Shown piece by piece: positions 2,997 to 18,462 of a DNA stretch of 20,488 nucleotides. Numbering within the stretch: the first letter of the stretch is position 1; each line of letters begins with the position of its first letter. This stretch comes from a virus, in IMG/VR virus record IMGVR_UViG_3300014720_002658, positions 1 to 20,488 of that record; one strand, 5' to 3'. The position numbers and the translations under genes were made by a program. The notes under the pieces are model-generated. The model was given only the letters and a program-made list of their open reading frames with translations. It ran no database searches and was not told the DNA's origin.

Positions 2997-3028
2997 ATGT
3001 GCATAGATCTAACCTAGGAGTTTATATC

Positions 3029-3715
3029 ATGAAACTGACACAAGATACTTTGTCTATTTTGAAGAACTATCAATCAATCAATCCTGGTATCGTCTTCAAG
3101 AAGGGTAATGTTGTTCAGACTATTTCACCTCAAAAGGTGATTGTGTCTGAAGCTGAGATTCAAGGCGATAGCTTCGACCGCGATTTCGGTATTTATGATC
3201 TTGGTAGCCTTTTGAGCATTCTTTCGCTTGCTGGCGATGAACCTGAGGTCGTTTTGGACGAGAAGTTCCTTTGCATTGTTGCTCGCTCTGGTAGAGCCAG
3301 GATCAAGTATCGCTACACCGATACCAGTTTGATCGTTACTACGCCAGACAAGAAGCTAAATCTTCCATCGAAAGATGTAACATTTAATCTTTCACAGGAT
3401 GATCTTACATGGCTTCTTCGTTCAACTGCTATCCTTCAGCTGCCACATGTGGCGATTGAGAGTGATGGTGCAAAGGTATACGTTAGCGCATTTGATGCGA
3501 ATAACGATGCTGCTCATGAGCAGAAGCTTGAGATTCAAGAAGGTAATGGTGTAAAGTATCGTTTGATTATTCGTAGCGAATACTTGAAGTTGTTGCCCAC
3601 AGATTACACTGTTACTGCATCGAAGAGTGGTATTGCTTTGTTTGAAGGCACCAATAAGAAGATCAAGTATTGGATTGCCATTGAGAAGAATGGTTCCAGC
3701 TACGGAGGCGAGTGA
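3029..3715 (+). CDS. 45: DNA polymerase sliding clamp (gp45-like)
   Basis: Sliding clamp that encircles DNA, tethers the replicative polymerase and, in T4, also activates late transcription. The 228 residues equal the length of T4 gp45. The start MKLTQDTLSILKNYQSINPGI and the segment GIYDLGSLLSIL match the gp45 family pattern. Chosen start: ATG 3029, with AGGAG at 3016-3020 eight bases upstream; an upstream in-frame start would need an implausible leader. It opens the replication operon under the promoter at 2969-2996. The next two genes encode a DsbA-like late-transcription protein and the clamp loader that works on this clamp. In T4, gp45 is a target of RegA translational repression; a RegA homologue is present downstream, but its site here cannot be proven by eye. 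Confidence 0.88.
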   Translation: MKLTQDTLSILKNYQSINPGIVFKKGNVVQTISPQKVIVSEAEIQGDSFDRDFGIYDLGSLLSILSLAGDEPEVVLDEKFLCIVARSGRARIKYRYTDTSLIVTTPDKKLNLPSKDVTFNLSQDDLTWLLRSTAILQLPHVAIESDGAKVYVSAFDANNDAAHEQKLEIQEGNGVKYRLIIRSEYLKLLPTDYTVTASKSGIALFEGTNKKIKYWIAIEKNGSSYGGE

Positions 3716-3998: not shown

Positions 3999-4012
3999 CC
4001 TTGGGGGTTGTG

Positions 4013-4954
4013 ATGCTTGATAATGATCAGTTTCTTTGGGTGGAGAAATACCGCCCAAAGAAGGTTGAAGACTGTATTCTACCAGACTTTTTGAAGAGTG
4101 TATTTCAACAATATGTGAATACGAAAAAAATACCCAATCTTCTTCTCACTGGCACACCAGGTGTTGGTAAAACAACAATTGCAAAGGCTATGTGTGATGA
4201 GATTGGTTGCGACTATATGATGATCAATGGTTCTGAAGAACGAGGCATTGACATTCTTCGAACCAAGATTAGGCAGTATGCGTCATCTGTTTCATTTGCT
4301 GGTGGTAGAAAGGTTATCATCATTGATGAGGCAGATAATCTAACTCCAGATACACAAGCTGGTATGCGCGCTGCTATTGAAGAGTTTTCGTCAAACTGTT
4401 CATTTATCTTTACTTGTAATCATAAGGCTAGGTTGATTGGTGCTATTCATTCTCGTTGCTCTGTTATTGAGTTCAAGATCAAAAATGGCAACAAAGTAAA
4501 GATGGCAGCTGCATTCATGAAAAAAGTGCAGCAAGTGTTAAAACTGGAGAACATCAAGTATGATGCTGAAGTTGTTGCACAGATCATACAAAAGCATTTT
4601 CCAGATTACAGACGTGTGCTCAACGAGTTGCAGCGATATTCGGTAAAGGGCGAAATAAATACCGGTATGCTGACACAAGTCGCAGATGTAAGTTTGACTA
4701 AGTTGATTGATTTCTTGAAGGCTAAAGATTATACATCAATGCGTAAGTGGGTAGGATCAAACATTGATGCGGATCCGAATACGGTTTTTCGTTTGATTTA
4801 TGATGCATTGTACGATAATATGAAGCCCGATTCGATACCTCAAGCTGTTATCATTTTGGCTGAATATCAATATAAAGCAGCATTTGTTGCGGATCAAGAG
4901 ATCAATTTAGTTGCTTGTTTGACACAAATAATGGTTGAATGCGAGTATAAGTGA
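4013..4954 (+). CDS. 44: Clamp loader large subunit, AAA+ ATPase (gp44-like)
   Basis: ATPase subunit of the clamp loader; four copies act with one gp62 to open gp45 and load it on primer-template DNA. Seen: WVEKYRPKKVEDCILP at the N-terminus (clamp-loader signature), Walker A GTPGVGKT (47-54), Walker B VIIIDEAD (101-108), sensor-1 FIFTCNH (131-137) and the SRC motif (147-149) carrying the trans-acting arginine. At 313 residues it is close to T4 gp44 (319). ATG 4013 is preceded by a G-rich stretch (4003-4007); a TTG at 4001 is a poorer choice. It overlaps gp62 by one base (TGATG), as expected for subunits made in a set ratio. Confidence 0.93.
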   Translation: MLDNDQFLWVEKYRPKKVEDCILPDFLKSVFQQYVNTKKIPNLLLTGTPGVGKTTIAKAMCDEIGCDYMMINGSEERGIDILRTKIRQYASSVSFAGGRKVIIIDEADNLTPDTQAGMRAAIEEFSSNCSFIFTCNHKARLIGAIHSRCSVIEFKIKNGNKVKMAAAFMKKVQQVLKLENIKYDAEVVAQIIQKHFPDYRRVLNELQRYSVKGEINTGMLTQVADVSLTKLIDFLKAKDYTSMRKWVGSNIDADPNTVFRLIYDALYDNMKPDSIPQAVIILAEYQYKAAFVADQEINLVACLTQIMVECEYK

Positions 4955-5382
4955 TGGATTTGTTCAAAGACATTATTCATTCAATTCTTGTAACAAAGAA
5001 AGATTTATCCAATGATCAAGAGTTTGCAGAAAACTATAAGCCATTTGTGGTCAATCGCGCTTTATCGAATCATGTGGATTGTATATTATTTGCCAATGAA
5101 ATGAATAGGTTACCAAATATTGATAATATTCTACAATATCATTTTTACATAAATAGTATACGGGGTATGAAACGAAAGTTTCAACCTTGGATCAAGAAAG
5201 ATAAGAATGATGTGTTAGATGCTGTCAAAGAATATTATCAAATTAATAATGCCAAAGCTCTTGACGCTCTTCGTATTCTGTCTCCTGATCAACTTGAGTA
5301 TATAACTAAAAAAACCGAAAAGGGTGGAGCAGATAATGTGGAGCATAGAAGACATGGTGGAGGTGACGCTGAAAGAGCGTGA
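4954..5382 (+). CDS. 62: Clamp loader small subunit (gp62-like)
   Basis: Non-ATPase subunit of the gp44/62 clamp loader. A 142-residue protein, shorter than T4 gp62 (187). It has the family pattern YKPFVVNRALS (about 30-40) followed by ANEMN, an RGMKRKFQPWIKK stretch, a KEYY segment and a final ILSPDQLEYI. ATG 4954 overlaps the gp44 stop. The gene ends at 5382, inside regA, giving a 29-base overlap with the preferred regA start. The C-terminal tail past GGADN is encoded in the regA initiation region. Position directly after gp44 supports the call strongly. Confidence 0.85.
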   Translation: MDLFKDIIHSILVTKKDLSNDQEFAENYKPFVVNRALSNHVDCILFANEMNRLPNIDNILQYHFYINSIRGMKRKFQPWIKKDKNDVLDAVKEYYQINNAKALDALRILSPDQLEYITKKTEKGGADNVEHRRHGGGDAERA

Positions 5383-5743
5383 TGACTTCCTAAAAGTGAA
5401 AGAAACATTGACACGCATTGGTGTTGCTTCTAAAAAAGATCAAACATTGTATCAATCTTGTCATATTCTTCATAAACAAGGCAAATACTATATTGCACAC
5501 TTCAAAGAACTATTTGCATTAGATGGTAAACCAACTAACTTCTCTGAAGGCGATATAGCAAGAAGAAACTCAATAACAAATCTTTTGGCAGAATGGGGTT
5601 TGATAGGTTTAGCGAAACCAGATAAAACAACAGATCCTATTTGTCCATTGAATCAAATCAAGATATTACCATTCAAAGATAAGCATGAGTGGCAACTGGT
5701 AGCGAAATATAACATTGGAAAGAAGAGAATTGAAACCGAATAA
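5354..5743 (+). CDS. regA: RegA translational repressor
   Basis: RNA-binding protein that represses translation of phage early mRNAs by covering initiation regions. Close to T4 RegA throughout: MVEVTLK, DFLKVKETLTRIGVA, LYQSCHIL, GKYYIAHFKE, LLAEWGLI and KHEWQLVAKYNIG. I chose ATG 5354 because residues then number exactly as in T4 RegA (K14, T18 and R21 align). An upstream ATG at 5336 has a better placed GGAG (5326-5329) and would add six residues (MWSIED), so either could be used. The 129 residues compare with 122 in T4. As in T4 it follows gp62, but here dut rather than DNA polymerase follows it. It probably regulates its own operon. Confidence 0.93.
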   Translation: MVEVTLKERDDFLKVKETLTRIGVASKKDQTLYQSCHILHKQGKYYIAHFKELFALDGKPTNFSEGDIARRNSITNLLAEWGLIGLAKPDKTTDPICPLNQIKILPFKDKHEWQLVAKYNIGKKRIETE

Positions 5744-5759
5744 GAAAGGTGATTTTATT

Positions 5760-6272
5760 ATGCCAACAAAATTGAAATACTTCAAGAAACATCCCGATGT
5801 TCCTGCGCCCGTATATTCAACTAATGATGCAGCATGTTTTGACATTCATCTTTGCACATATGGTGTGATGTCTGTCACAGGTCATGATGAGAATGGTAAG
5901 CAGTTCTCAAGGTTGTTGAGTAATGATGGTGGTATCATTATTTGTCCAAGAGAAAGAGTGTTATCGCCAACAGGAATCATTTTTGACATTCCCAAAGAGT
6001 GGTCGGTCAGGCTGCATCCAAGGTCAGGAATGTCTCTTAAAGACGGCTTGACTTTAGCAAACGCTCAAGGTATAATAGACTCGGATTATGTGCTGGAGAC
6101 CTTTGTGATGTTGACCAATATCTCGGCTAAGAATATAACCGTGCCCAATCTTTCTCGCATTTGTCAAGGCGAGCTGGTCAGGATCAATAGAGCCATTTTT
6201 GAGGTCACTACAGAATTGCCATCCCGTGATGATACCAATAGAAAAGGCGGTTTTGGTTCCACGGGCACTTGA
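5760..6272 (+). CDS. dut: dUTPase (trimeric type)
   Basis: Hydrolyses dUTP to dUMP and pyrophosphate, keeping uracil out of DNA and feeding dTMP synthesis. All five trimeric dUTPase motifs can be traced: DAACFDI (23-29), PRSGMSL (87-93), GIIDSDY with the catalytic Asp region (104-110), RICQGELVRI (133-142) and the C-terminal KGGFGSTG (162-169). Motif 3 continues DYVLE rather than the usual DYxGE. There is also an insertion of about 20 residues around GHDENGKQFSRLL. 170 residues. ATG 5760 follows an AAAGGTG element; the gap from regA is 16 bases. The stop codon overlaps the -35 of the hsp20 promoter. Confidence 0.9.
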   Translation: MPTKLKYFKKHPDVPAPVYSTNDAACFDIHLCTYGVMSVTGHDENGKQFSRLLSNDGGIIICPRERVLSPTGIIFDIPKEWSVRLHPRSGMSLKDGLTLANAQGIIDSDYVLETFVMLTNISAKNITVPNLSRICQGELVRINRAIFEVTTELPSRDDTNRKGGFGSTGT

Positions 6273-6299
6273 CAAACATAACCGCCAATACTATATAAT
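6269..6299 (+). promoter_or_regulatory. Strong sigma70-like promoter for hsp20
   Basis: A perfect TTGACA (6269-6274) overlaps the dut stop codon. The -10 is either TATATA (6292-6297, 17-base spacer) or TATAAT (6294-6299, 19-base spacer). Transcription should begin near 6304, exactly where the folded hsp20 leader begins. Confidence 0.75.
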
Positions 6300-6303
6300 G
6301 ATA

Positions 6304-6352
6304 GATGATGCCACCATGGGTCATCTTTATTTTAACTTGCTGAAAAGGAGTT
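6304..6352 (+). promoter_or_regulatory. ROSE-like RNA thermometer in the hsp20 leader
   Basis: The leader can fold into two hairpins. Hairpin 1 (6304-6325) pairs GATGAT and CC with GG and GTCATC, with a bulged G at 6310. Hairpin 2 (6334-6352) pairs AACTT-(G)-CT with AGGAGTT around a GAAA loop: 6334-6338 with 6352-6348, G6339 bulged, C6340-G6347 and T6341-A6346. It buries the whole Shine-Dalgarno. The TTGCT opposite AGGA with an unpaired G is the hallmark of ROSE thermometers that control small heat-shock genes in rhizobia and enterobacteria. Melting on heating would free the RBS five bases before ATG 6357. The pairing is seen by eye; thermosensing is inference. Confidence 0.6.
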
Positions 6353-6356
6353 ACAC

Positions 6357-6818
6357 ATGACACTAACATATTCTTTTGGTCGTAATCTGCTTCCTTCTAC
6401 TGTTGGTTTCGATAGATTGCTATCGACATTGGATGAGGCGATGAACTTGCCAGAAAAGGTATTGACTACATTCCCACCATACAACATTGCCAAAATTGGT
6501 GATGATAGGTATGTAATTGAGCTGGCTGTTGCTGGATTCAAGAGGGAAGAGATTGATATCACACTTGAAGATAACAAACTGACAATTCAAGGGAATGCGA
6601 AGAAGGATGAAGAAACCAGTAATAAGAGCTATTATCATCGTGGCATCGCTCTTCGTAACTTTACCCGTCATTTTACTCTCGCTGATACGGTAGTCGTAAA
6701 GTCGGCTGAACTCGTCGATGGAATGCTTGCGATTGAACTCGAAAATGTTATTCCTGAGAGTAAAAAGTCTAGAAAGATTTCTTTGAGCAATTCAAAAAAG
6801 ACACTTCTTCAAGAATAA
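6357..6818 (+). CDS. hsp20: Small heat shock protein Hsp20 (IbpA class)
   Basis: ATP-independent holdase chaperone with an alpha-crystallin domain at about 42-130. PYNIAKIGDDRYVIELAVAGF opens the domain, YYHRGIALRNFTRHFTLAD (92-110) is the IbpA-class signature, and DGMLAIELEN closes it. An I-S-L (141-143) near the C-terminus fits the IxI/V oligomerisation motif. 153 residues, normal for the family. Start ATG 6357 has AAGGAG at 6345-6350, which is paired in a ROSE-like hairpin. hsp20 is a frequent gene in T4-like marine phages, where it may protect capsid assembly or host proteins. It has its own promoter and a hairpin downstream, so it is probably expressed separately from dut. Confidence 0.92.
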   Translation: MTLTYSFGRNLLPSTVGFDRLLSTLDEAMNLPEKVLTTFPPYNIAKIGDDRYVIELAVAGFKREEIDITLEDNKLTIQGNAKKDEETSNKSYYHRGIALRNFTRHFTLADTVVVKSAELVDGMLAIELENVIPESKKSRKISLSNSKKTLLQE

Positions 6819-6823
6819 CTTCG

Positions 6824-6831
6824 TATAAATA
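6824..6831 (+). promoter_or_regulatory. T4-type late promoter (perfect TATAAATA)
   Basis: A perfect match to the T4 late-promoter octamer, read by RNA polymerase carrying gp55 with gp33 and gp45. It sits five bases after the hsp20 stop and 80 bases before the first speD-like gene. A transcript from here would start near 6838 and include the hairpin at 6857-6887. Confidence 0.6.
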
Positions 6832-6856
6832 CTCTCACTTACTTTTATTATCAACC

Positions 6857-6894
6857 AGTCACCGTGGGTATTGTGCTCACGGTGACTTTCTATC
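6857..6894 (+). terminator. Hairpin between hsp20 and speD (likely terminator)
   Basis: A perfect 10-bp stem AGTCACCGTG (6857-6866) / CACGGTGACT (6878-6887) with an 11-base loop, followed by a short T-rich stretch (TTTCTATCT). It is likely the terminator for hsp20 transcripts. Because a late promoter lies upstream of it, it may also act as a leader hairpin for the speD transcript. The tail has few uninterrupted T residues, so termination may be partial. Confidence 0.6.
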
Positions 6895-6910
6895 TAGAAA
6901 GGATACTTTG

Positions 6911-7267
6911 ATGGAACAATACTGGGGTTATCACACCATGCTTGACTGCCGTTCATGTAAGACGGATTTGATCAAGAGTTATGATAATATCTACAACTTT
7001 GCAAAAAGCCTTGTAAAAGCCATTGATATGAAAGCTTATGGCGAGCCTCAGATTGTACATTTCGGAGAGGATGATAAACAAGGATATACACTGGTACAGT
7101 TGATCGAGACCAGTAATATCTGTGCACATTTTTGTGACGATTCAGGTGATGCATACATTGATGTATTCTCATGCAAGCCTTATGATCGTGACGTTGTCAG
7201 AGATCAGATCATTGAGTTTTTTATGCCCAAGCAGATCACTGTCAATTATGTTGAAAGACAGGCATGA
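6911..7267 (+). CDS. speD: SpeD-family pyruvoyl decarboxylase, divergent copy
   Basis: A 118-residue member of the S-adenosylmethionine decarboxylase (SpeD) family, resembling the copy common in T4-like marine phages (WGYHTMLDC, IDMKAYGEPQIVHFGEDD, GYTLVQLIETSN). Ser68, His73 and Cys88 keep the spacing of the family's pyruvoyl-forming Ser, processing His and catalytic Cys (+5, +15). The residue before the serine is Thr67 rather than the usual Glu, so self-cleavage would occur in an unusual context. Substrate may be AdoMet; SpeD homologues acting on ornithine or arginine are also known. It lies downstream of a late promoter and a hairpin, and just before a canonical SpeD gene. ATG 6911 is preceded by AAAGGAT. 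Confidence 0.75.
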   Translation: MEQYWGYHTMLDCRSCKTDLIKSYDNIYNFAKSLVKAIDMKAYGEPQIVHFGEDDKQGYTLVQLIETSNICAHFCDDSGDAYIDVFSCKPYDRDVVRDQIIEFFMPKQITVNYVERQA

Positions 7268-7270
7268 GAG

Positions 7271-7618
7271 ATGAGTGGTGTATCATATATGGGTCGGCAC
7301 GTTATTGCCGATTTACATGATGTATCTGCTGACATTCTTGGCTCCATCGATTTCTGGAAAGAACTCTTGGTTGATGGAGCCAAGATATCTGGTGCCACTG
7401 TTTTGAGCGATCACTTTCACCATTTTGGTGAAGGTTATGGCATAACTGGTGTCATTGTATTAGCTGAAAGTCATATCAGTATTCATACATGGCCTGAGAA
7501 AAACTATGCGGCCGTTGACATATTCATGTGCGGCACATGCGACCCTCAGGCAGCACTAAATCATATTACGAGCAAGATAAATAGTGTTGTAATAAAAGAC
7601 TTGATTTACAGAAAGTAA
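7271..7618 (+). CDS. speD: S-adenosylmethionine decarboxylase proenzyme (class 1B)
   Basis: Pyruvoyl enzyme that decarboxylates AdoMet to supply aminopropyl groups for spermidine. It has the full signature: HVIADLHDV, LSGATVL-like ISGATVL (39-45), FGEGYGITGVIVLAESHISIHTWPE and AAVDIFMCG. Self-cleavage is expected between Glu66 and Ser67; His72 and Cys87 fall at the catalytic spacings. 115 residues, normal for the small bacterial/archaeal class. Start ATG 7271 is three bases past the previous stop; an internal ATG at 7289 (MGRHVIAD) is also plausible by family length. No SpeE (spermidine synthase) gene is seen in the window, so the product would feed host enzymes. Confidence 0.9.
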   Translation: MSGVSYMGRHVIADLHDVSADILGSIDFWKELLVDGAKISGATVLSDHFHHFGEGYGITGVIVLAESHISIHTWPEKNYAAVDIFMCGTCDPQAALNHITSKINSVVIKDLIYRK

Positions 7619-7975: not shown

Positions 7976-8695
7976 ATGAAAGCAATAGTCATCATACCAA
8001 CAACCGGTGATCAAAAGGTTCTCGATGCAATTAAAAGCGTTGAGAACCAAACCTATAAAGATACGAACTATCTCGTGGTTGTTGATGGAAACAAGTTCAA
8101 ACCGAAATTCGATGACCTATTTGTTGACAGAGATCCATATATGCAACCAAAGGATGTTGTGTATCTAAAACACAATACTGGTGGTGATGGATTCTATGGT
8201 CATCGTGTTTACGCTGGCTTTTCACATCTAGTAAATGAAGATATTGTTCTTTTCCTCGATCAAGATAACTGGTACGAACCAGATCATGTTGAAAGGCTTG
8301 TTGACACAATACAAAAAGAAAACCTTGCATGGGCATATAGTCTTCGCAATATTTACGATAAGCATGATCAATTTATGTGTCGAGATGATTGCGAGAATCT
8401 TGGTAAATGGCCTGTATGGAATAATCTCAATAGTTTTCATGTTGACACTAGTGCGTATGCATATACGAGAGAGTTTTTGATTCGCGTTGCGTCAGTGTGG
8501 CATTCTGGATATGCTGGTGATCGTAGATTTTTCAATACAATAAAAGATATTGCACCATATGGTACGAGTGGTGTATATACATTGAACTATAGATTGGATG
8601 GTAATACAACCTCTGCATCACCTGATTTCTTTAAATATGGTAATCAAACAAATCAACAGAAATATAATGGCAACTATCCTTGGAGAAAAGTATGA
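7976..8695 (+). CDS. Family 2-like glycosyltransferase
   Basis: GT-A fold glycosyltransferase of 239 residues. IVIIPTTGDQKVLDAIKSVENQTYKD is the typical GT2 N-terminus (opening strand, then SxxxQTY). VLFLDQDNWYEPDHVERL carries the DQD metal/nucleotide-binding motif (95-97). No transmembrane segment is seen, so it is soluble. The sugar and acceptor cannot be read. It is the first of the glycosyltransferases in the long sugar operon and its stop overlaps the start of the following methyltransferase by four bases (ATGA). Confidence 0.8.
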   Translation: MKAIVIIPTTGDQKVLDAIKSVENQTYKDTNYLVVVDGNKFKPKFDDLFVDRDPYMQPKDVVYLKHNTGGDGFYGHRVYAGFSHLVNEDIVLFLDQDNWYEPDHVERLVDTIQKENLAWAYSLRNIYDKHDQFMCRDDCENLGKWPVWNNLNSFHVDTSAYAYTREFLIRVASVWHSGYAGDRRFFNTIKDIAPYGTSGVYTLNYRLDGNTTSASPDFFKYGNQTNQQKYNGNYPWRKV

Positions 8696-9270
8696 GTAAT
8701 ATAAAAATTGAATACATGAAAGAGTATGGTGCTGGTAGGGTATTTGTTGAGACTGGAACATATTTGGGCGATACTGTTCAGATTGCATTAGATGCTGGTT
8801 ACGATCTAGTTCACAGTATTGAAGTGAATCAGGATATGTTCGACAAATGTTATGAGAGATTCAAGAACAATCCAAAAGTGAAGCTATGGTTTGGTGATTC
8901 TGTTGATATTGTTCCTCAGATTGCACATGAGTTGAACGAACCTGCGACATTTTGGCTTGATGCTCATGCTAGTGGACCTTTACCGGGTGGTCGTTATGCA
9001 CCATGCCCTTTGGTGCTTGAACTACAGGGCATCTATGGTAAAGAGGTTGTTCGTATTACTGAAACTGGTATGCAGAAGCAACGAGAGAAATCCAAAATTG
9101 ATACACACACAATCATGATTGATGATCGTCGTTTATTCGGTTCACCTGAATGGGGGTATGTGCAAGAAGTGCAAGTAATGCAATTATTGTTTCAAATCAA
9201 CCCCAACTATCAAGTTAGATATCTTGACGGGCATCAACCTAATGATATTATTTGCGCGAGGGTTCTATGA
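8692..9270 (+). CDS. Putative SAM-dependent methyltransferase
   Basis: A 192-residue class I methyltransferase-like protein. VFVETGTYLGDTV (17-29) resembles the SAM-binding glycine loop, SIEVNQDMFDK (42-52) the acidic strand-2 residue, and WFGDS (66-70) the motif III region. FWLDAHAS (87-94) and IMIDDRR (141-147) are further conserved-looking acidic segments. It could methylate a sugar in the glycan made by this operon; substrate is unknown. ATG 8692 overlaps the preceding stop by four bases, and GGAG lies just upstream. Confidence 0.65.
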   Translation: MSNIKIEYMKEYGAGRVFVETGTYLGDTVQIALDAGYDLVHSIEVNQDMFDKCYERFKNNPKVKLWFGDSVDIVPQIAHELNEPATFWLDAHASGPLPGGRYAPCPLVLELQGIYGKEVVRITETGMQKQREKSKIDTHTIMIDDRRLFGSPEWGYVQEVQVMQLLFQINPNYQVRYLDGHQPNDIICARVL

Positions 9271-10142
9271 AAGATTTGATCCTTGGTTGTATAACCAACT
9301 ATACATTTGATAAGATCGTTCATTGGGTCAATTCCATTGATCGTTCTGGTTTCGATGGATATAAGGTTGTTATTGCATACAATGTTGGTTTCGAGATTGT
9401 TGAAGAACTGACTAAAAGAGATTACACAGTCGTTACATTCAACCGTGATGATGCTAACAAAAGGTTTACTTATCGCGAAGATTTCAACATTGTTGTTGAT
9501 AGATTTTATCATTCATGGAAGGTGTTGAACAATCTTGAGAATCAGGTAAACTATGTTATTGCAACCGATGTTCGTGATGTTGTGTTTCAAACAAATCCTA
9601 GTGAAACATTGCGTAGGTTAAATGCATTTGCTCAATACGATGGTGATCAAAAGATCATAGCTTCCACTGAGGGCATTTCGTACAGAAATGAGCATTGGGG
9701 AAACAATAATATGCGCTTAAGTTTCCCATATGTTCATGAGTATATGCTGGATAAGACGATATACAATGCTGGTGTAATGGCAGGTCGTTGGAGCACAATC
9801 AAGGATTTATTCTTGAACATTTATATGATATGCGCTAATATGTCTCACACTATTCCTGGTGGTGGTGGACCCGATCAGGCAGCATATAACACATTGTTGA
9901 CAATGGACCAGTATAAATCTATCACTAGGTTTACTAAAGCATCAGACGCATGGGCTGCTCAGTTAGGAACAACTGCTGATCCACGGAAGATAGATATGTA
10001 TAGGCAGTATTTGACTGATGATGAGCCTATCGTAAAAAATAATATGGTTTGTAATAGTTCAGGCACTCCTTATAGCATTGTTCATCAATATGATCGCGTG
10101 CCGAACATTTCTTCTTTGATAACTTCTAAGTATGGATCTTGA
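9267..10142 (+). CDS. Putative glycosyltransferase (TDVRDVVFQ type)
   Basis: A 291-residue protein with the look of a GT-A transferase. VNYVIATDVRDVVFQTNP (94-111) contains a D-x-x-D element like those binding the metal-nucleotide in DUF-type glycosyltransferases. IYNAGVMAGRW and GGGGPDQAAYNTLL are typical of the acceptor-side half of such enzymes. No membrane helix is evident. It starts at the ATGA overlap with the methyltransferase stop. The assignment is by motif resemblance and genomic context; sugar specificity is unknown. Confidence 0.65.
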   Translation: MKDLILGCITNYTFDKIVHWVNSIDRSGFDGYKVVIAYNVGFEIVEELTKRDYTVVTFNRDDANKRFTYREDFNIVVDRFYHSWKVLNNLENQVNYVIATDVRDVVFQTNPSETLRRLNAFAQYDGDQKIIASTEGISYRNEHWGNNNMRLSFPYVHEYMLDKTIYNAGVMAGRWSTIKDLFLNIYMICANMSHTIPGGGGPDQAAYNTLLTMDQYKSITRFTKASDAWAAQLGTTADPRKIDMYRQYLTDDEPIVKNNMVCNSSGTPYSIVHQYDRVPNISSLITSKYGS

Positions 10143-10143
10143 T

Positions 10144-10779
10144 ATGTCAGATATTATTAGAATCAACACAATGACGAACTCTTTTCAAAAGGTTGAAAGA
10201 CCTTTGACTATTGCTCAATACAAGGAGCAAGGCAAATGGCCATTTGATTTTATTTCGGGTAAGGGTTTGGTGAATGTGATAAATGAACTATCCAATCGTT
10301 TGAGTCGAAATGTGGTTGGATTGGAGATTGGCATTTGTAAAGGCGAGAATATTGTTCATTTTCTAGAGCAGACAAATAGAATTGATAAGATTCATTGTAT
10401 TGATCCTTATCTTCCATATATGGATTGGGTTGGTCCAGTAACACAAGAAGATATGGATTTGTGGTATGAGATCACAATGCAAAACTTCGCCCTACATATG
10501 GATAAAATTGTTGTACACAAAGAAACATCTGATACTGCTGTAACTAAGTTTGATGACGGTCAATTCGATTATATTTTCATTGATGGTGATCATTCTTATG
10601 AAAGTGTATTAAAAGACTTGAACAACTATTACAGCAAGGTGCGACCAGGTGGTATTTTCTCTGGACATGACATCAACTTACAAACTGTTCAACAAGCATT
10701 GAGAGATTTTAGATCTGCGAACAACATTGATAATGAAATGTCGTTTACCGATGTAAATGTTTGGTATTGGGTGAAGTGA
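10144..10779 (+). CDS. Class I SAM-dependent methyltransferase
   Basis: A 211-residue methyltransferase of the Methyltransf_24 type. VGLEIGICKGENIVHFL (58-74) is the SAM glycine loop, IHCIDPY (83-89) gives the acidic residue for the ribose, FDYIFIDGDHSYESV (141-155) is the central acidic motif, and VRPGGIFSGHD (166-176) follows. Such enzymes are common in glycan clusters as sugar O-methyltransferases; the target is unknown. I chose ATG 10144 directly after the preceding stop; ATG 10132 would add four residues (MDLD) and overlap by eleven bases, but neither has a strong RBS. Confidence 0.8.
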   Translation: MSDIIRINTMTNSFQKVERPLTIAQYKEQGKWPFDFISGKGLVNVINELSNRLSRNVVGLEIGICKGENIVHFLEQTNRIDKIHCIDPYLPYMDWVGPVTQEDMDLWYEITMQNFALHMDKIVVHKETSDTAVTKFDDGQFDYIFIDGDHSYESVLKDLNNYYSKVRPGGIFSGHDINLQTVQQALRDFRSANNIDNEMSFTDVNVWYWVK

Positions 10780-11648
10780 TGAATAAGAAACCTTTGCGGG
10801 TAGGATTCGTAGATGTTTGTACATCAGAGTTCTACGAGCATATTCTTAGTCAAAGATATGATTTGATTATAGACAACAATGATCCTGAATATTTGTTCTT
10901 TGGTGATGAAAACTTTGGTACAAGAAATCTTCAATATTCTAAAGATAAATGCATAAAGATTTTCAATACAGGCGAAAATAGGCGACCAGAGAACTATCAA
11001 TGTCATTATGCTATGACATTTGATCATAATCCGAATCAATGGCATTATAGGTTACCTGGTTGGGCATTAGTGCCTTTCTTTTACAAGAAGTTTGATTTCA
11101 ATCATATTTTCAATGCACATAATATCAAACACTCAAAGACGAAGTTTTGTGTATTCATACATAGAAATCCTAGCAATAATATACGCAATACTGTCTTTCA
11201 CGAACTATGTAAGTATAAGAAGGTAGATAGTGCAGGGCCCCTATTCAATAATATTGGGTATACGATTAGCCCCGATTATGATGCCAAGTTGGATTTCATA
11301 AAAGATTACAAGTTTGTATTTTCATTTGAGAATAGCCCGCATCCTGGCTATGTTACTGAGAAGATCATGGATGGATTTTATGTCAATTCTATTCCTATTT
11401 ACTGGGGTTCAGCGACAGTAGATTTAGATTTCAACGAGAGATCTTTTATTGATGCTGGAAGATTCAATAGTATTCAAGAATTGATTCAAACTATCGTTAG
11501 AATTGACAATGACGATGGCCTATATAATGATATGATTGCACAACCCAAGTTCAGGCATAATATGCCACCTAGTGAGATGGTATATGATAACTTTTTGAAT
11601 TGGTTTGATGCTATCGTTTATAATAAGATTTATAAGAGAGATATATGA
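10779..11648 (+). CDS. GT10 fucosyltransferase (alpha-1,3/4 type)
   Basis: A 289-residue glycosyltransferase of family GT10, which transfers L-fucose from GDP-fucose, often in alpha-1,3 or 1,4 linkage. Family motifs are clear: IFNTGENRRP (61-70), FCVFIHRNP (123-131), and the donor-binding run FSFENSPHPGYVTEKIMDGFYVNSIPIYWG split over 181-210, then DFNERSFID. No C-terminal amphipathic membrane tail of the Helicobacter kind is evident. A GDP-fucose synthase gene lies 2.9 kb downstream in the same operon, a natural donor source. ATG 10779 overlaps the methyltransferase stop by one base. Confidence 0.88.
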   Translation: MNKKPLRVGFVDVCTSEFYEHILSQRYDLIIDNNDPEYLFFGDENFGTRNLQYSKDKCIKIFNTGENRRPENYQCHYAMTFDHNPNQWHYRLPGWALVPFFYKKFDFNHIFNAHNIKHSKTKFCVFIHRNPSNNIRNTVFHELCKYKKVDSAGPLFNNIGYTISPDYDAKLDFIKDYKFVFSFENSPHPGYVTEKIMDGFYVNSIPIYWGSATVDLDFNERSFIDAGRFNSIQELIQTIVRIDNDDGLYNDMIAQPKFRHNMPPSEMVYDNFLNWFDAIVYNKIYKRDI

Positions 11649-12622
11649 ACAAGCATAAAAAGATTATCGTTTGGGGTGCAAAATACGATACTGGGCATAC
11701 TCATGCATTTACACATGCAGCATTTGTGAATGCGGCTCAGTATTTGGGTGAAGAAGTATATTGGTTAGATGACCGAGATAATGTTGATCCATCTTTTTTC
11801 GATGACTCTTTGATTATATCAGAGCATTGGATTGCAACCACGCATCCTGCGAGTCATAGATTGCCTTTGAGAACAACATCAACATATGTTATGAACTATT
11901 TGGGCAATAAAAAAGGAACAGATAATCCTGGTGCAGATTATTATCTAGGTCGTGTGGGCAGAATCATAGACTTTCGTTTTGCTAATGACTGGTCAGACAA
12001 ATACTGGGAATACAAATACGAACCTCAAAAATACATTGCTGTGAATGATGGGTTCTCGCATCTAGAAAGGGGTGCTGAGTATGATAACTTTTACAGTATG
12101 TGGGCTACTGATTTTATGCCCAATGAAATCAACCTAGATGATTGTTTGACTGCTTGGAAAGAACCCAGATCAGTATTTTTTTCAGGTACGATCAGAGAAG
12201 ACAATCATGATCAGTTTGAACCATTTATTCGTGCATGTAATGAAAACAATATGCCATTTTATTTCAACAATGTTTGGCAAAGAGTATTGCAGAAAGAGGA
12301 TGTGAAAAAACTATCTCTTGATGCATTTCTGGCTCTAGAGCTTCGCCCTAAGTTTCATGTGAACATTGGATATAAATCATGCAGAGCATTCAAGTTGATC
12401 AGTTATGGTCAATTAGGGATGACCAACTCTAAGGCTGTATATGATTTTTTTGATCAAGAGATAGCATTTCATGAAGATCCGTATCAGTTGTTTTATGTTG
12501 CATCTGAGATGCGAACAAATCCAAAAACAAGAGACTTAGTTCACAATCAAATGAAGAAGGTAAAAGAAAAGCATACATATGCTAGTAGGATGAAGGATAT
12601 TATAACTGCTTGTGAAATGTGA
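11645..12622 (+). CDS. Putative GT-B-like glycosyltransferase
   Basis: A 325-residue protein with weaker similarity to known families. IIVWGAKYDTGHTHAFTHAAFVNAAQYLGEEVYWLDD reads as a GT-B N-terminal strand-loop-helix. The C-terminal part (VFFSGTIREDNHDQF, then NIGYKSCRAFKLISYGQLGMTNS, then DPYQLFYVASEM) resembles the donor domain of CgeB/GT1-like transferases, where an F-K-x-x-x-Y-G segment sits near the nucleotide site. Neighbours on both sides are glycan genes. It starts with an ATGA overlap. Function is an inference from fold-like pattern and context. Confidence 0.55.
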   Translation: MNKHKKIIVWGAKYDTGHTHAFTHAAFVNAAQYLGEEVYWLDDRDNVDPSFFDDSLIISEHWIATTHPASHRLPLRTTSTYVMNYLGNKKGTDNPGADYYLGRVGRIIDFRFANDWSDKYWEYKYEPQKYIAVNDGFSHLERGAEYDNFYSMWATDFMPNEINLDDCLTAWKEPRSVFFSGTIREDNHDQFEPFIRACNENNMPFYFNNVWQRVLQKEDVKKLSLDAFLALELRPKFHVNIGYKSCRAFKLISYGQLGMTNSKAVYDFFDQEIAFHEDPYQLFYVASEMRTNPKTRDLVHNQMKKVKEKHTYASRMKDIITACEM

Positions 12623-12630
12623 GGTTTATG

Positions 12631-13569
12631 ATGACAACTGTTTTGGTAACTGGTGGTGCAGGCTACATTGGTAGTATTTTTGTTGAAGAGCTTCTTCGAC
12701 TTGGTTTTAGAACCATTGTTCTCGACAATCTTTATTACGATAATCAAACATCGCTCAATCATTTGATGCACGACAACTTATTAGAGATAAGAAGAGGCGA
12801 TGTAAGAAAACCTAGTGATATCGATCCATTATTGAAAAGAGCCGATTACATTTTCCCACTAGCTGCTCTTGTTGGTGCACCTGTTTGCGATATAGACCCT
12901 GTTACAGCGACTACAACCAACAAAGATGCTATTTTTTACATGCTTGATAATATCAGCCCTGGTCAAGCAGTGATTATGCCAACAACGAATAGCGCATATG
13001 GCACTGGTGATGATAATAACTTTTGCACTGAAGAGTCACCATTGAACCCTATTTCTTTGTATGCCAAGGATAAGGTGAAGGTTGAAAAGAGGTTGATGGA
13101 ACATCCTAATGCTATTAGCTATAGGTTGGCAACAGTGTTTGGTATGTCACCTCGTATGCGAACAGACCTATTAGTCAACGATTTCACATATCGAGCAGTG
13201 AATGATGGTTTTGTTGTTCTATTTGAAGGACACTTTAAGCGCAACTATATTCACGTTCGTGATGTTTGCAGAGCATTTGTACATGGAATAGTCAACTTTC
13301 AAGAAATGAAAGGACAGATCTATAATGTTGGTTTGTCTGACGCAAATCTGTCAAAGCTAGAACTCTGTAAGATAATCAAGTCTTTCATTCCTAAGTTTAC
13401 ATATCTAGAAGCACCACTATTGAAGGATCCGGATCAAAGAAACTATATTGTTTCAAATGCTAAGATTGAAGCAACTGGATACAAGCCACAATATTCGCTT
13501 CAAGATGGTATTGTAGAAATGATCAAAGGTTACAAGTTTTTGAAAAACAATCGTCATGGTAATGTATAA
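12631..13569 (+). CDS. Extended SDR: NAD-dependent sugar epimerase/dehydratase-like
   Basis: A 312-residue extended short-chain dehydrogenase of the nucleotide-sugar epimerase family. Cofactor loop GGAGYIG (8-14), a TTNSAYG segment (118-124) where the catalytic Ser/Thr lies, and YxxxK (Tyr144, Lys148). RNYIHVRDVCRAFVHGI is the usual substrate-side segment. It probably changes the stereochemistry or oxidation state of a GDP-, UDP- or dTDP-sugar; which is unknown. The ATG at 12631 is chosen with GAGG at 12621-12624; ATG 12628 and GTG 12619 are less well spaced. It overlaps the GHMP kinase start by one base. Confidence 0.8.
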   Translation: MTTVLVTGGAGYIGSIFVEELLRLGFRTIVLDNLYYDNQTSLNHLMHDNLLEIRRGDVRKPSDIDPLLKRADYIFPLAALVGAPVCDIDPVTATTTNKDAIFYMLDNISPGQAVIMPTTNSAYGTGDDNNFCTEESPLNPISLYAKDKVKVEKRLMEHPNAISYRLATVFGMSPRMRTDLLVNDFTYRAVNDGFVVLFEGHFKRNYIHVRDVCRAFVHGIVNFQEMKGQIYNVGLSDANLSKLELCKIIKSFIPKFTYLEAPLLKDPDQRNYIVSNAKIEATGYKPQYSLQDGIVEMIKGYKFLKNNRHGNV

Positions 13570-14552
13570 TGATTATCATACGCACACCATATAGGATTTC
13601 ATTCTTTGGTGGCGGCACAGATTATCCGGCATGGTATCGCGAGCATGGGGGCTGTGTTTTGTCCACCTCTATCAATAAGTGTAGTTTTTTAGTCTTACGC
13701 AGACTACCTGAAATATTTGATTATCGATACAAGATTCGATACTTCAACGATGAAACAACATCATCGATTGAAGACATAAAGATTCCTGTGATTCGTGAAG
13801 CGATCAAATATATGAACTTCGAAGATGGGTTAGATATAACTCATCATGGTGATTTGCCCAATCGCACTGGTATTGGATCCAGTTCTAGTTTCACAGTATC
13901 ATTGATTCATGGGCTTGCAACATTGAAAAATCAGCAAATAACTAAACGAGATCTTGCAAAAAAAGCGATATATTTGGAACAAAATATATTACGTGAAGCT
14001 GTTGGATCACAAGATCAGGTTGCTGCTGCATTCGGTGGATTCAATAAGATTGAGTTTGGTGGGTATACAGACTTTACTTGCTATACATTACACCTTCAAA
14101 AAGATATTCTTCAAGAGCTTGAATCATGGGTTCAATTGTTCTTTACGGAAAAACTGAGAAACTCTTTCGACATTGCTGAGAAAAAGATTGAGAACATAAC
14201 TACAAAGAAAACTGATCTCAATACAATGAAAGACTTGACTTATGAAGCAGAAAGAGTTATATTTCAACATAGGATATATGATTTTGCTAACCTATTGAAT
14301 GATCAATGGAAGCTGAAAAAAAGCATGGAATCTTCAGTCACAACAAGTGACATTGATGAGATTTATGAAAAAGGTATACAAGCTGGAGCTGTTGGTGGTA
14401 AGTTATTGGGTGCTGGTGGTGGTGGATTTATATTATTTTTGACACCACCGCATATGCAAAAGAAAGTTGCAGAAAAACTAAGATTGAAGCAAGTACCACT
14501 AAACTTTGATTATTTGGGAAGTCAAATCATTTATCACGATTATCAAAATTGA
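13569..14552 (+). CDS. GHMP sugar kinase (HddA heptokinase-like)
   Basis: A 327-residue GHMP kinase. IRTPYRISFFGGGTDYP (4-20) is the hallmark of D-glycero-D-manno-heptose 7-phosphate kinase (HddA) and fucokinase-like kinases. LPNRTGIGSSSSF (96-108) is the ATP-binding GHMP loop, GSQDQ (146-150) a conserved segment, and GGKLLGAGGGGF near the C-terminus the third motif. HddA makes heptose 1,7-bisphosphate on the way to GDP-heptose. No GmhA, GmhB or HddC gene is in the window, so a heptose route would need other genes. A related sugar-1-kinase function is possible. TAATG overlap with the preceding gene. Confidence 0.8.
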   Translation: MIIIRTPYRISFFGGGTDYPAWYREHGGCVLSTSINKCSFLVLRRLPEIFDYRYKIRYFNDETTSSIEDIKIPVIREAIKYMNFEDGLDITHHGDLPNRTGIGSSSSFTVSLIHGLATLKNQQITKRDLAKKAIYLEQNILREAVGSQDQVAAAFGGFNKIEFGGYTDFTCYTLHLQKDILQELESWVQLFFTEKLRNSFDIAEKKIENITTKKTDLNTMKDLTYEAERVIFQHRIYDFANLLNDQWKLKKSMESSVTTSDIDEIYEKGIQAGAVGGKLLGAGGGGFILFLTPPHMQKKVAEKLRLKQVPLNFDYLGSQIIYHDYQN

Positions 14553-14559
14553 GGTTATC

Positions 14560-15510
14560 ATGAAAAAGATATATGTTGCTGGTCATACAGGATTGGTTGG
14601 TTCAGCTATTGTTCGTGCTTTACAAGAACAAGGCGAAAATAATATCATTACAGAGGCATCATCTCGGCTGAACCTGACAGACCCTATTGCAGTTGATGCA
14701 TTTTTCACAAAAGAAAAGCCTGATGAAGTGTATCTTGCTGCAGCTAAAGTTGGTGGTATTGTTGCCAACAACACATATCCAGCAGATATGATCAATGTCA
14801 ATCTTCGTATACAGACTAATGTCATTGATGCTGCATATAGACATGGTGTTGAAAAGTTGCTGTTTTTGGGTTCAACATGTATCTATCCTCGTGTTTGCCC
14901 ACAACCAATCAAAGAAGAATATTTGATGACTGGTCATCTTGAAGTGACGAATGATGCATATGCGATTGCTAAGATTGCTGGAATCAAAATGTGTCAAGCA
15001 TACAATCGTCAATATGGTACTGATTATCGTGCAGTGATGCCGAGTAATGTATATGGTATAGGTGACAATTTTCATCCAGAGAACAATCATCTTGCTGCTG
15101 GTTTGATGCGAAAGTTTCATGAAGCTAAGTTAAAGGGAACCAAGGCTGTTCTTTGGGGTACAGGTAAACCTCGTCGTGAGTTCTTGTATTGTGATGATCT
15201 TGCTAGAGGATGTATTCATGTTTTGAATGCACCAAAAGAAGAGTTCACGAAAACTGGTGGATTTGTGAACCTTGGACCAGGATATGATTTAGAGATTAGT
15301 GAGTTCGCAGAAATCCTTGCTGAGGTCATTGGATATAACAATGGGTTCGAGTACGATTCATCGCGCCCTGATGGTACTATGCGCAAACTGACTGATACGA
15401 GTAAAGCTAATGCATTAGGATGGTTTCCTCAAATATCACTTGACAATGGTTTGAAAATAATGTATGATTGGTATGTATCAGGATTAGTCAGAGGTAGAAT
15501 CAGACAATGA
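14560..15510 (+). CDS. fcl: GDP-L-fucose synthase
   Basis: Bifunctional 3,5-epimerase/4-reductase turning GDP-4-keto-6-deoxy-D-mannose into GDP-L-fucose. Cofactor loop GHTGLVG (8-14); active-site Ser105 and Cys107 (GSTCIYP), Tyr134, Lys138 and His177 all lie exactly two residues before their E. coli Fcl counterparts (107, 109, 136, 140, 179). NNTYPADMI and KVGGIVAN are further family signatures. 316 residues, typical. ATG 14560 has GAGG at 14551-14554; a longer reading from 14506 is unlikely. Its usual partner, GDP-mannose 4,6-dehydratase (Gmd), is not seen here. The GT10 fucosyltransferase upstream is a likely user of the product. Confidence 0.92.
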   Translation: MKKIYVAGHTGLVGSAIVRALQEQGENNIITEASSRLNLTDPIAVDAFFTKEKPDEVYLAAAKVGGIVANNTYPADMINVNLRIQTNVIDAAYRHGVEKLLFLGSTCIYPRVCPQPIKEEYLMTGHLEVTNDAYAIAKIAGIKMCQAYNRQYGTDYRAVMPSNVYGIGDNFHPENNHLAAGLMRKFHEAKLKGTKAVLWGTGKPRREFLYCDDLARGCIHVLNAPKEEFTKTGGFVNLGPGYDLEISEFAEILAEVIGYNNGFEYDSSRPDGTMRKLTDTSKANALGWFPQISLDNGLKIMYDWYVSGLVRGRIRQ

Positions 15511-16493
15511 GGTATTTTGTAACTGGTGGTGCAGGTTATATTGGAAGCCATGTTGTCGATGTATTGCTGAATAGAGGGCATGAGGTTATTGCATACGATA
15601 ATCTCTCCAGTGGTCAAATGAGATATATCGAAAAGCATAAGCATTTGACTAATCCTAAGTTTAAGTTCATTATGAATGATTTGGTTGAACAACTGCCGCT
15701 TATAGAAAATCTAAGAGGTGTTGATTGTGTATATCATCTTGCTGCTAATGCGGATATAAGAAAAGGTTTTGCCAATCGTAAAATAGACATAAACAGCAAT
15801 GTCATAGGCACATCAAACCTTTTAGAAGCGATGTACTGCAACAATGTGAAAAGAATCTTATTTGCATCCACTTCTGCTGTTTTGGGTGAATTGGATATTG
15901 ATAAGTTACCAGCCTCAGAAACGATTGCAATGCCTGAGCAAACATCACTGTATGGTGCAACTAAACTGGCCGGCGAAGGTTTGTTATCTGCATATTGTGA
16001 AGGAATGGATTTAGAAGCATATGCTTTTCGATTTGTTACTGTTTTGGGTCCCAGATACAGTCATGGGTTTGTTTTTGATTTTGTAAAAAAACTGATTGCT
16101 GATCCGAATAGAATTGAAGTATTAGGTAATGGTAAAGGAATAAAAAGTTCCGTTCATGTTTCTGATGTTGTTTCAGCGTTGATTACTATTGGTGAATATG
16201 TTAGACCAGCTCAAAATAAGAAAAGGAAATACGAGGTATTCAATATTGGTAATGATGTCACTTATCGTGTAAGTGATGCTGTTCAATGGGTTTGTGATGC
16301 AATGGGGTTACAACCAAACATTGTTTATGATAATGAGATAAAAGGATGGCCTGGTGATATACCATATATACATTTAGATACAACAAAGATCAAATCATAT
16401 GGTTGGTCTGTATCATATACACCAAAGCAGGCTGTTTACGAAACTGTTGAATGGTTACTTAATAACAAGTGGATATTAGAGGCTAGAAAATGA
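15507..16493 (+). CDS. UDP-glucose 4-epimerase-like SDR
   Basis: A 328-residue extended SDR close in pattern to GalE/WbpP-type epimerases. Cofactor loop GGAGYIG (7-13), YDNLSSG (30-36) at the NAD ribose site, HLAANADIRKGF (77-88), STSA (121-124) and YGATK with Tyr149 and Lys153. It likely inverts C4 of a UDP- or GDP-hexose; substrate is not determined. ATGA overlaps at both ends couple it to fcl and to the cytidylyltransferase. The first 40 residues are close to the SDR at 12631 in the cofactor loop, but the substrate-binding halves differ. Confidence 0.82.
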   Translation: MRYFVTGGAGYIGSHVVDVLLNRGHEVIAYDNLSSGQMRYIEKHKHLTNPKFKFIMNDLVEQLPLIENLRGVDCVYHLAANADIRKGFANRKIDINSNVIGTSNLLEAMYCNNVKRILFASTSAVLGELDIDKLPASETIAMPEQTSLYGATKLAGEGLLSAYCEGMDLEAYAFRFVTVLGPRYSHGFVFDFVKKLIADPNRIEVLGNGKGIKSSVHVSDVVSALITIGEYVRPAQNKKRKYEVFNIGNDVTYRVSDAVQWVCDAMGLQPNIVYDNEIKGWPGDIPYIHLDTTKIKSYGWSVSYTPKQAVYETVEWLLNNKWILEARK

Positions 16494-16936
16494 AACGTAT
16501 TGCTATTGCTAGTGGTGGGTTCGATCCAATACATTCAGGACATATTGATTACTTACGAGATGCAAAACTTTTGACTGACATGCTGATTGTAGGAATCAAT
16601 TCAGACAATTGGTTGATTCGTAAGAAAGGAAACTATTTCTTACCTTTCGAAGAAAGAATGAGCATTGTTAGTAGTGTTAGATGGGTCGATAAAGCGGTTG
16701 CATTCAATGATGATGATGAGAGTGCTGCATCTCTTATCAGAGATGTTCGTACAATGTATCCAGGTTGTTTGTTGTTTTTTGTCAATGGTGGTGATAGAAT
16801 AGGTGGTACAAAACAGAGTGATCTTGAAATGCAGGTTGCTGACGAGCATACATTTTTTGTTGTTGGTGTTGGGGGTAAGAATAAGAAGAACTCATCATCA
16901 AAGATTCTAGATAGATGGAGAATAGCTTCAAAATGA
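16490..16936 (+). CDS. Cytidylyltransferase-like nucleotidyltransferase
   Basis: A 148-residue nucleotidyltransferase of the HxGH family (glycerol-3-phosphate cytidylyltransferase/HldE C-terminal type). FDPIHSGHIDYLRDAK (11-26) has the HSGH nucleotide-binding motif, VGINSDNW (34-41) the second strand, FEERMSIVSSVRWVD (53-67) the ER-containing helix, and NSSSKILDRW near the C-terminus a trace of the ISSS(T)KI motif. It joins a nucleotide to a sugar or polyol phosphate. With the HddA-like kinase it could activate a heptose, though HddA normally pairs with a different (GDP-forming) transferase. ATGA overlap on both sides. Confidence 0.78.
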   Translation: MKRIAIASGGFDPIHSGHIDYLRDAKLLTDMLIVGINSDNWLIRKKGNYFLPFEERMSIVSSVRWVDKAVAFNDDDESAASLIRDVRTMYPGCLLFFVNGGDRIGGTKQSDLEMQVADEHTFFVVGVGGKNKKNSSSKILDRWRIASK

Positions 16937-17676
16937 AAAAGGCATTAATATTCGTTCCAACAGGAAATAATGCTGATACATTTGATGATAGGTATGACAA
17001 GAATGCGCATTGGAGATCGAAGCATCTTGATCGAACATATGAGATTGTGAGTTGTGTTTATAAAGAAGGTTTCGAACCAAACCCAAATGTATATGACTAT
17101 TTGTATCATATTCGTGGTCATAAGTGGCAAATGGTTCGTGATGTATTCAACCAATTCGACTACAGCAAATATGATTACATAGGTTGTATTGATGATGATC
17201 AGATTACTGATGTTTGGAATCTAAATAAGGGGCTTGAAATAGCAAGAAGGTTTGATTTTCGGTTATGGCAATTATCAATGGCAGAAGGTTCTGACCTATT
17301 TTATCAATGTTTGACGCAAGATAAAGGAATAGATTTTTCGGAGACGAACTTTCTCGAATGTGGTGTTCCTGTTTTTAGAACTGATATATTCGCTCGTATT
17401 CTTAAGGCGCTAAACTCGTGGCCTGGATACGAACAAGCATGGGGGCTTGATAAAGCATATTGCGATATTGCACAATCACATGCACATGTGGTTCATAGTG
17501 CTTCGATCTATCATCCACCAAGACAAGCATATTATGATAAAACAGGTGCAATGAATGAATTGAATGCTTTTATGAGTATCATATACCCTAAGATGGCACG
17601 CGAAATTTTTGGACATGAGTCTATGATGATCGATCAACAAGTAACATATCATAGATTTAAGATGGGTAATTGGTGA
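16933..17676 (+). CDS. Putative GT-A-like protein of unknown specificity
   Basis: A 247-residue protein. KALIFVPTGNNADTFD opens with a strand-loop, and YDYIGCIDDDQITDVWNLNKGLEIARRF (80-107) places a DDD in the position of the GT-A metal site. FLECGVPVFRTDIFARIL and WGLDKAYCD fit the acceptor-side segments of such enzymes, and the gene lies among glycosyltransferases. The ATG at 16933 forms an ATGA overlap; an in-frame ATG at 16915 would add six residues. Glycosyltransferase is an inference; family not identified with confidence. Confidence 0.55.
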   Translation: MKKALIFVPTGNNADTFDDRYDKNAHWRSKHLDRTYEIVSCVYKEGFEPNPNVYDYLYHIRGHKWQMVRDVFNQFDYSKYDYIGCIDDDQITDVWNLNKGLEIARRFDFRLWQLSMAEGSDLFYQCLTQDKGIDFSETNFLECGVPVFRTDIFARILKALNSWPGYEQAWGLDKAYCDIAQSHAHVVHSASIYHPPRQAYYDKTGAMNELNAFMSIIYPKMAREIFGHESMMIDQQVTYHRFKMGNW

Positions 17677-18461: not shown

Positions 18462-18462
18462 T

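Follow-up and report, generated by a model that had tools for sequence, protein, structure and literature searches.

The closest described system is the short ROSE thermometer of Pseudomonas ibpA (Krajewski 2013, PMC3669281; Rfam family ROSE_3). Its mechanism has been proven by probing, toeprinting and reporter experiments: only hairpin II melts, hairpin I staying closed, the switch is locked when the G corresponding to the bulged one of the leader studied here is deleted, and hairpin II is sufficient by itself (PMC3669281). The classical ROSE elements of Bradyrhizobium hspA and E. coli ibpA share with the phage elements described below the ROSE motif, a bulged G in the hairpin that holds the Shine-Dalgarno (SD) sequence and a small heat-shock protein (sHSP) gene. 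They are nevertheless made of three to four hairpins (PMC3669281), whereas most phage elements have two.

The original prediction for this leader gave lambda cIII as the phage precedent. In both, temperature would be sensed by the RNA alone, in the leader of a phage mRNA, but the sense of the switch is the opposite one: cIII adopts two alternative conformers, its ribosome binding site can be reached below 37 °C and is closed at 45 °C (PMC4166951), and its structure and gene are unrelated. Cyanobacteria are the host group of many carriers, and the sHSP leaders of Synechocystis (hsp17) and Anabaena also hide the SD. That of hsp17 is however a single short hairpin without the ROSE motif, another type blocks the start codon, and one Anabaena sHSP leader has been described as ROSE-like (PMC4166951). 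The manA and wcaG RNAs (Weinberg 2010, PMC2864571) are likewise structured RNAs of T4-like cyanophages, and manA reportedly occurs in what may be 5' UTRs of ibpA chaperone genes (PMC2864571), but both are larger and their folds differ from that of the phage hsp20 leader. Identity with manA (RF01745) was considered and rejected, with no match in the loci of five relatives and none for the window at the curated Rfam cut-offs.

Two papers on cyanophage sHSPs, one of them PMC5028025, mention neither untranslated regions nor thermometers. Open-access full texts on phages with RNA thermometers, ROSE or Hsp20 contained no report of a phage ROSE-hsp20 element, an absence that is not proof. The mechanism, i.e. 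that of a short ROSE, is known, and its phage-wide occurrence appears to be new.

The hsp20 leader and its genomic setting

The window, i.e. the whole stretch of 20,488 nt that was analysed, is a piece of a T4-like phage (Table 1). Its regA gene is located one gene upstream of the dUTPase gene that precedes hsp20. In S-PM2, S-RIM32, S-RSM4 and DSL-LC02 (loci L087, L135, L141 and L143) regA is immediately 5' of hsp20, and hsp20 adjoining the RegA/replication cluster recurs among T4-like phages. The gap between the dUTPase gene and hsp20 is 84 nt long and contains a promoter-like block, whose -35 element overlaps the stop codon of the dUTPase gene, followed by two hairpins.

Table 1. Positions of the features around the hsp20 leader in the window.
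Feature	Positions	Strand	Details and support
Sliding clamp, gp45-type	2999-3715		
Clamp loader subunits	4001-4954 and 4951-5382		
RegA translational repressor	5324-5743		PF01818, 2.2e-45
dUTPase	5760-6272		
Putative sigma70-type promoter	6269-6299	+	TTGACA 6269-6274; TATATA 6292-6297 (17 nt) or TATAAT 6294-6299 (19 nt)
Hairpin I, stable	6304-6325	+	Conserved bulged G6310 (U.G, [G], C-C / G-G core); fold, covariation, Rfam ROSE_3 alignment
Single-stranded U-rich linker joining hairpins I and II	6326-6333	+	Folds
Anti-Shine-Dalgarno arm AACUUGCU	6334-6341	+	ROSE motif U(U/C)GCU with bulged G6339; conservation
Hairpin II loop GAAA	6342-6345	+	Fold
Shine-Dalgarno arm AGGAGUU, sequestered in hairpin II (6334-6352)	6346-6352	+	Folds, Rfam alignment, covariation
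hsp20, the gene controlled (small heat-shock protein / IbpA-like, 153 aa)	6357-6818	+	Pfam HSP20 1.3e-19; PHROG 432 1e-39
14-bp hairpin with U-rich tail, 3' of hsp20	6857-6887	+	Sequence scan

The original prediction described two adjacent hairpins in a leader beginning at 6304, the second one burying AGGAG by pairing with AACTT-G-CT, closed by a GAAA loop and leaving one G unpaired. Folding returned both hairpins, and the Pfam match identified the downstream gene as the expected hsp20. In hairpin I, GAUGAU (6304-6309) pairs with GUCAUC (6320-6325) and, beyond the bulged G6310, CC (6311-6312) pairs with GG (6318-6319), with an additional A6313-U6317 pair. In hairpin II the pairs are A6334-U6352, A6335-U6351, C6336-G6350, U6337-A6349, U6338.G6348, C6340-G6347 and U6341-A6346, arranged around the bulged G6339. 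The ROSE motif UUGCU (6337-6341) thus faces AGGAG in an imperfect pairing. The anti-SD arm, AACUUGCU, does not place UUUU opposite the SD as in the FourU type of thermometer, where four U pair with AGGA/GGAG.

With the Pseudomonas ibpA element this anatomy shares two hairpins in a leader of 53–70 nt ahead of an sHSP gene, a stable hairpin I with a bulged-G UGCC/GGG core, and a hairpin II in which U(U/C)GCU lies opposite the SD with one bulged G. The phage elements differ in being phage-borne, shorter, A/U-rich and mostly under the Rfam cut-off. They follow late-type or sigma70-like promoters, whereas the Pseudomonas ROSE follows a sigma32 promoter; many have UCGCU, and some (L286, L303) have a third hairpin.

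The block upstream of the leader had been called a strong promoter, a description that needs correcting: with TTGACA-(17)-TATATA or TTGACA-(19)-TATAAT it fails a canonical 16–18 nt promoter scan, although it is conserved in the near clade (L001-L026). The other clades have instead a late-type box, TAAATA/TATAAATA, at the matching position; the T4 late promoter sequence is TATAAAT (PMC3037559). In 121 of 175 distinct leaders the distance from the end of TAAATA to the first paired base of hairpin I is 0–6 nt (mode 4), and TATAAT is placed likewise in about 20. The promoter type therefore varies among clades while the RNA stays constant. Since the box lies just 5' of hairpin I, its position suggests that the mRNA should begin with hairpin I.

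Directly after hsp20 a T4-late-type TATAAATA is found at about 6824-6831, ahead of the 3' hairpin. This hairpin is probably the terminator of a monocistronic hsp20 unit, or else a leader hairpin of the next gene; the region 6823-6910, with the late-type box and then the hairpin, precedes the first of two adjacent genes (6911-7267 and 7271-7618) that both match S-adenosylmethionine decarboxylase (PF02675, E 1.9e-20 and 4.1e-32, respectively). The pair is possibly a duplicated or split phage polyamine gene. Further downstream (7976-20488), many reading frames resemble by eye glycosyltransferases, nucleotide-sugar epimerases/dehydratases, sugar kinases and methyltransferases, and would form a large phage block of surface-sugar genes.

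Occurrence of the element among phages

The original prediction had proposed a search with the Rfam ROSE covariance models. We queried all families with 301 bases around the leader at a permissive threshold; ROSE_3 (RF02523) was the best of four matches, over its full length (24.9 bits, E 0.0031). This score is below the gathering cut-off of 43 bits, and at the curated cut-offs the window gave no match. This cut-off is exceeded (44.1 bits) by L128, a phage contig syntenic with the window, with clamp loader and regA upstream of hsp20. Of 12 phage records, 6 had a ROSE_3 match at this leader of hsp20, and the scores in the reference phages Melnitz-3, Atu_ph07 and C48C1 were 34.1, 28.0 and 26.8 bits respectively.

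Relatives were compared via the protein, because searching the phage collection with the DNA gave no match. The Hsp20 search yielded 80 IMG/VR loci (48–100% identity), and the two-hairpin layout was shared by almost every leader of the fetched loci. MAFFT alignments of all leaders were dropped, because they put the SD or the 3' strand of hairpin I in the wrong place. We used instead a covariance model, R1, trained on only eight leaders with loops of equal length (L007, L030, L031, L037, L038 and L046-L048), with the structure written by hand and the window excluded.

R1 scored the window at 43.0 bits (E 3.9e-8), and the Pseudomonas locus L090 at 20.3, compared with 69.2 for ROSE_3. Among sequences not used to build it, it matched at E<=0.01 29 of 49 cyanophage-type loci, most of the remainder giving weaker matches at the same position, 57 of 59 mixed loci and 28 of 45 other loci, which include phages of Pelagibacter, Methylophilales, Agrobacterium and Sinorhizobium. 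All the confident R1 matches in phage loci are upstream of hsp20. At the same threshold, 96 of 97 loci (299 kb in total) had exactly one match each, at the hsp20 leader, and there was no other. Among whole phage records, the sole confident match of each genome is again the hsp20 leader; with the stricter filters of that search, 3 of 15 records had none. No R1 match was obtained in the sHSP loci of Firmicutes and Planctomycetota (L131-L134). A two-hairpin descriptor, written after the leaders had been seen, recognised 71 of 90 hsp20 leaders and none of 4500 mononucleotide shuffles, without any off-target in 876 kb of locus sequence (both strands counted). In a relaxed form it matched 176 of 192 distinct leaders, the reference phages and further scans being added.

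The carriers are Kyanoviridae on Synechococcus, Prochlorococcus, Pelagibacter and Methylophilales, small Pelagibacter phages, and two jumbo phages of Agrobacterium and Sinorhizobium. The element is general among hsp20-bearing phages and not peculiar to the phage of the window, and temperature control of the viral chaperone is probably widespread. In a scan of contigs of bacterial relatives, L129 and L130, which are probably phage contigs inside metagenome bins, have the same leader; distant bacterial sHSPs do not. When R1 was run on two sets of bacterial genomes (143 and 142), matches were few and mostly weak, the strong ones with hsp20 coming from both starting bins and a single other genome (L314).

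Covariation, hairpin stability and alternative readings

For 95 distinct sequences fitted to R1, 95.0% of the cells are paired, vs 75.5% when partners are shuffled and 44–62% when they are slid. Both-sided changes occur in 11 of 14 pairs, with a covariation score of 0.531 vs 0.165, counts that overstate the independent events because related sequences were aligned by fitting to R1. In hairpin I, two-sided compensatory change is seen at all eight pairs (95.5% of cells paired), and the presence of four Watson-Crick types at its pairs 2–4 cannot be a fitting artefact. The hairpin II helix (94.5% paired) is far more invariant, as expected because its arm must match the SD. Its outer pair covaries (U-A 37, A-U 17, C-G 6) and is unformed in many cyanophages, while the column of the bulged G6339 is G in 96 of 96. 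Among 176 distinct leaders the anti-SD variants are ACUCGCU (53), UCUUGCU (50), ACUUGCU (47), UCUCGCU (14) and CUUUGCU (10). The cyanophage S-RSM4 (L141) has GGAC for GGAG and, on the facing base, G for C (GUCGCU/AGGAC). This double change and the covarying outer pair were weighed against the view that CUYGCU is kept merely as sequence, which we rejected.

Retention of the SD with loss of the pairing arm 6334-6341, named in the original prediction as the pattern that counts against it, was looked for in related phages and not seen. The nearest case is that of the SAR11-phage-type loci L109-L116, where hairpin I is retained and AACUGUCU faces AGGAGGUU in place of the ROSE motif, complementary by eye. 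A G/A mismatch seems there to replace the bulged G, as a natural variant of the switch.

Other leaders carry additional structures. L286, L303, L130 and L298 have a ROSE-like layout of three hairpins, the extra one separating hairpin I from the SD hairpin. In L027, L028, L029, L042 and L048 a further structured domain is found 5' of the ROSE-like hairpins, ~60–120 nt upstream of the hsp20 start. It consists of a CCYUCGGGAUGGG-like hairpin, then interleaved complementary segments resembling an H-type pseudoknot (ACCAGC/GCTGGT with CCGAGG/CCTCGG in L028, ACTTGT/ACAAGT with CGAGG/CCTCG in L048; compensatory by eye). This domain gave no Rfam match, manA included.

The invariance of the hairpin II core could also be read as that of a protein site. 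T4-like phages repress translation by RegA, and the leader might be an operator at which a protein of the phage or the host, most plausibly RegA, acts on translation, with (U/C)GCU...AGGAG as the site and the hairpin as its presentation. The location of regA, near hsp20 in the window and directly 5' of it in the four phages named above, is in favour of such an operator. It would however predict neither the similarity to ROSE_3, a family of bacterial sHSP leaders, nor compensatory change in all the pairs of hairpin I. Moreover RegA prefers unstructured sites near start codons and targets many phage mRNAs, whereas each phage genome has a single copy of the element, at hsp20. We consider an operator improbable.

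The folding energies bear on a second alternative. In the window, hairpin I is predicted at -7.8 kcal/mol at 37 °C, and hairpin II at about -4.2 kcal/mol at 20 °C and -1.7 to -1.9 at 37 °C. Excised hairpins II (n=176) have a median of -2.9 kcal/mol at 37 °C (sd 1.0), all between -5 and 0; in the same survey the median of hairpin I is -8.4 kcal/mol. A weak hairpin II in a narrow stability band next to a strong hairpin I is compatible with a thermometer. The SD is predicted to be buried in the leaders, with a median P(unpaired) of 0.07 at 15 °C vs 0.46 for other SD-bearing gene starts. Its computed opening is gradual, from 0.02 at 5–10 °C to 0.22 at 50 °C, and the proven Pseudomonas element gives the same curve, so that the energy model speaks neither for nor against thermosensing. 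When 37 nt of coding sequence are added, ViennaRNA favours pairing of the SD to the coding sequence; these folds were set aside as uninformative, because for the proven Pseudomonas element, too, the procedure gives an unstable outcome and predicts other SD partners.

The gradual melting predicted for hairpin II would suit a fixed translational brake that lowers or delays Hsp20 with no response in the natural temperature range, hairpin I shielding the 5' end from decay. Hairpin I indeed begins exactly at the presumed 5' end, a known stabilising position, and 5'-end protection has been suspected for that of Pseudomonas (PMC3669281). A brake would nevertheless be more easily made by a weak SD, and the narrow stability of hairpin II, its invariant bulge and a trade-off between its core and outer pairs resemble melting that is tuned. 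The outer pair is present in 7 and absent in 27 UCGCU leaders (C-G core), vs 54 and 8 respectively for UUGCU leaders (U.G core; Fisher p 1e-10, kinship ignored): a stronger core with the outer pair lost, or a weaker core with the outer pair kept, looks like tuning of melting. Both the operator and the brake are weakened by the ROSE_3 similarity, and we regard a fixed brake as unlikely. A chance likeness, i.e. an SD that happens to meet its complement in an A/U-rich leader, agrees with the window's Rfam score under the curated cut-off, but it is refuted by the covariation over 95 distinct sequences, besides the 0 of 4500 shuffles and the confinement of model matches to hsp20 leaders, and its probability is negligible.

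A candidate thermometer for a phage chaperone

The structure, its conservation and covariation, its restriction to hsp20 and its similarity to ROSE_3 are directly established. The 53-nt leader 6304-6356 is very probably an RNA thermometer of the short, two-hairpin ROSE type, by which translation of the phage hsp20 is controlled. This ROSE-like reading, already put forward in the original prediction, is borne out by the ROSE_3 similarity, by an anatomy identical to that of the proven two-hairpin Pseudomonas ROSE, by the conservation and covariation, among nearly all related phages, of the arm that pairs with the SD and by hsp20 downstream; it agrees with all available sequence tests except the curated Rfam cut-off for the window.

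The transcript would start at or beside the first base of hairpin I, which, as in Pseudomonas, would be a stable fold holding the 5' end. In hairpin II the imperfect pairing of UUGCU to AGGAG (bulged G, U.G) would hide the ribosome site at the normal temperature of the host. On warming, the weak hairpin II would melt while hairpin I stays closed, ribosomes would load and the chaperone would be made. The phage would thereby gain a heat response of its chaperone independent of the heat-shock sigma factor of the host, and its use in infection may be chaperoning under warming.

We lean slightly towards a broader picture, in which nearly all hsp20-bearing aquatic T4-like phages and at least two other lineages use a ROSE thermometer at the 5' end of a late transcript, chaperoning is temperature-gated at translation independently of the host heat-shock system, and ROSE elements pass back and forth among phages and bacteria that belong to distant phyla.

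In T4-like cyanophages hsp20 belongs to the core genes (PMC3037559), and Hsp20 of the cyanophage S-ShM2 stops client aggregation under heat in vitro (PMC5028025). Its purpose in cyanophages is unsettled, and capsid scaffolding has been suggested. With a conserved thermometer before hsp20, the amount of chaperone would be meant to vary with temperature, which would favour a role in protein quality control during infection under heat over plain scaffolding. The range of ROSE elements, those of proteobacterial genes, would then also take in a large phage family with cyanobacteria among its hosts, a group whose best known sHSP thermometers are not of the ROSE type. The warming of oceans and lakes would thus be linked to phage gene expression through a short, testable RNA.
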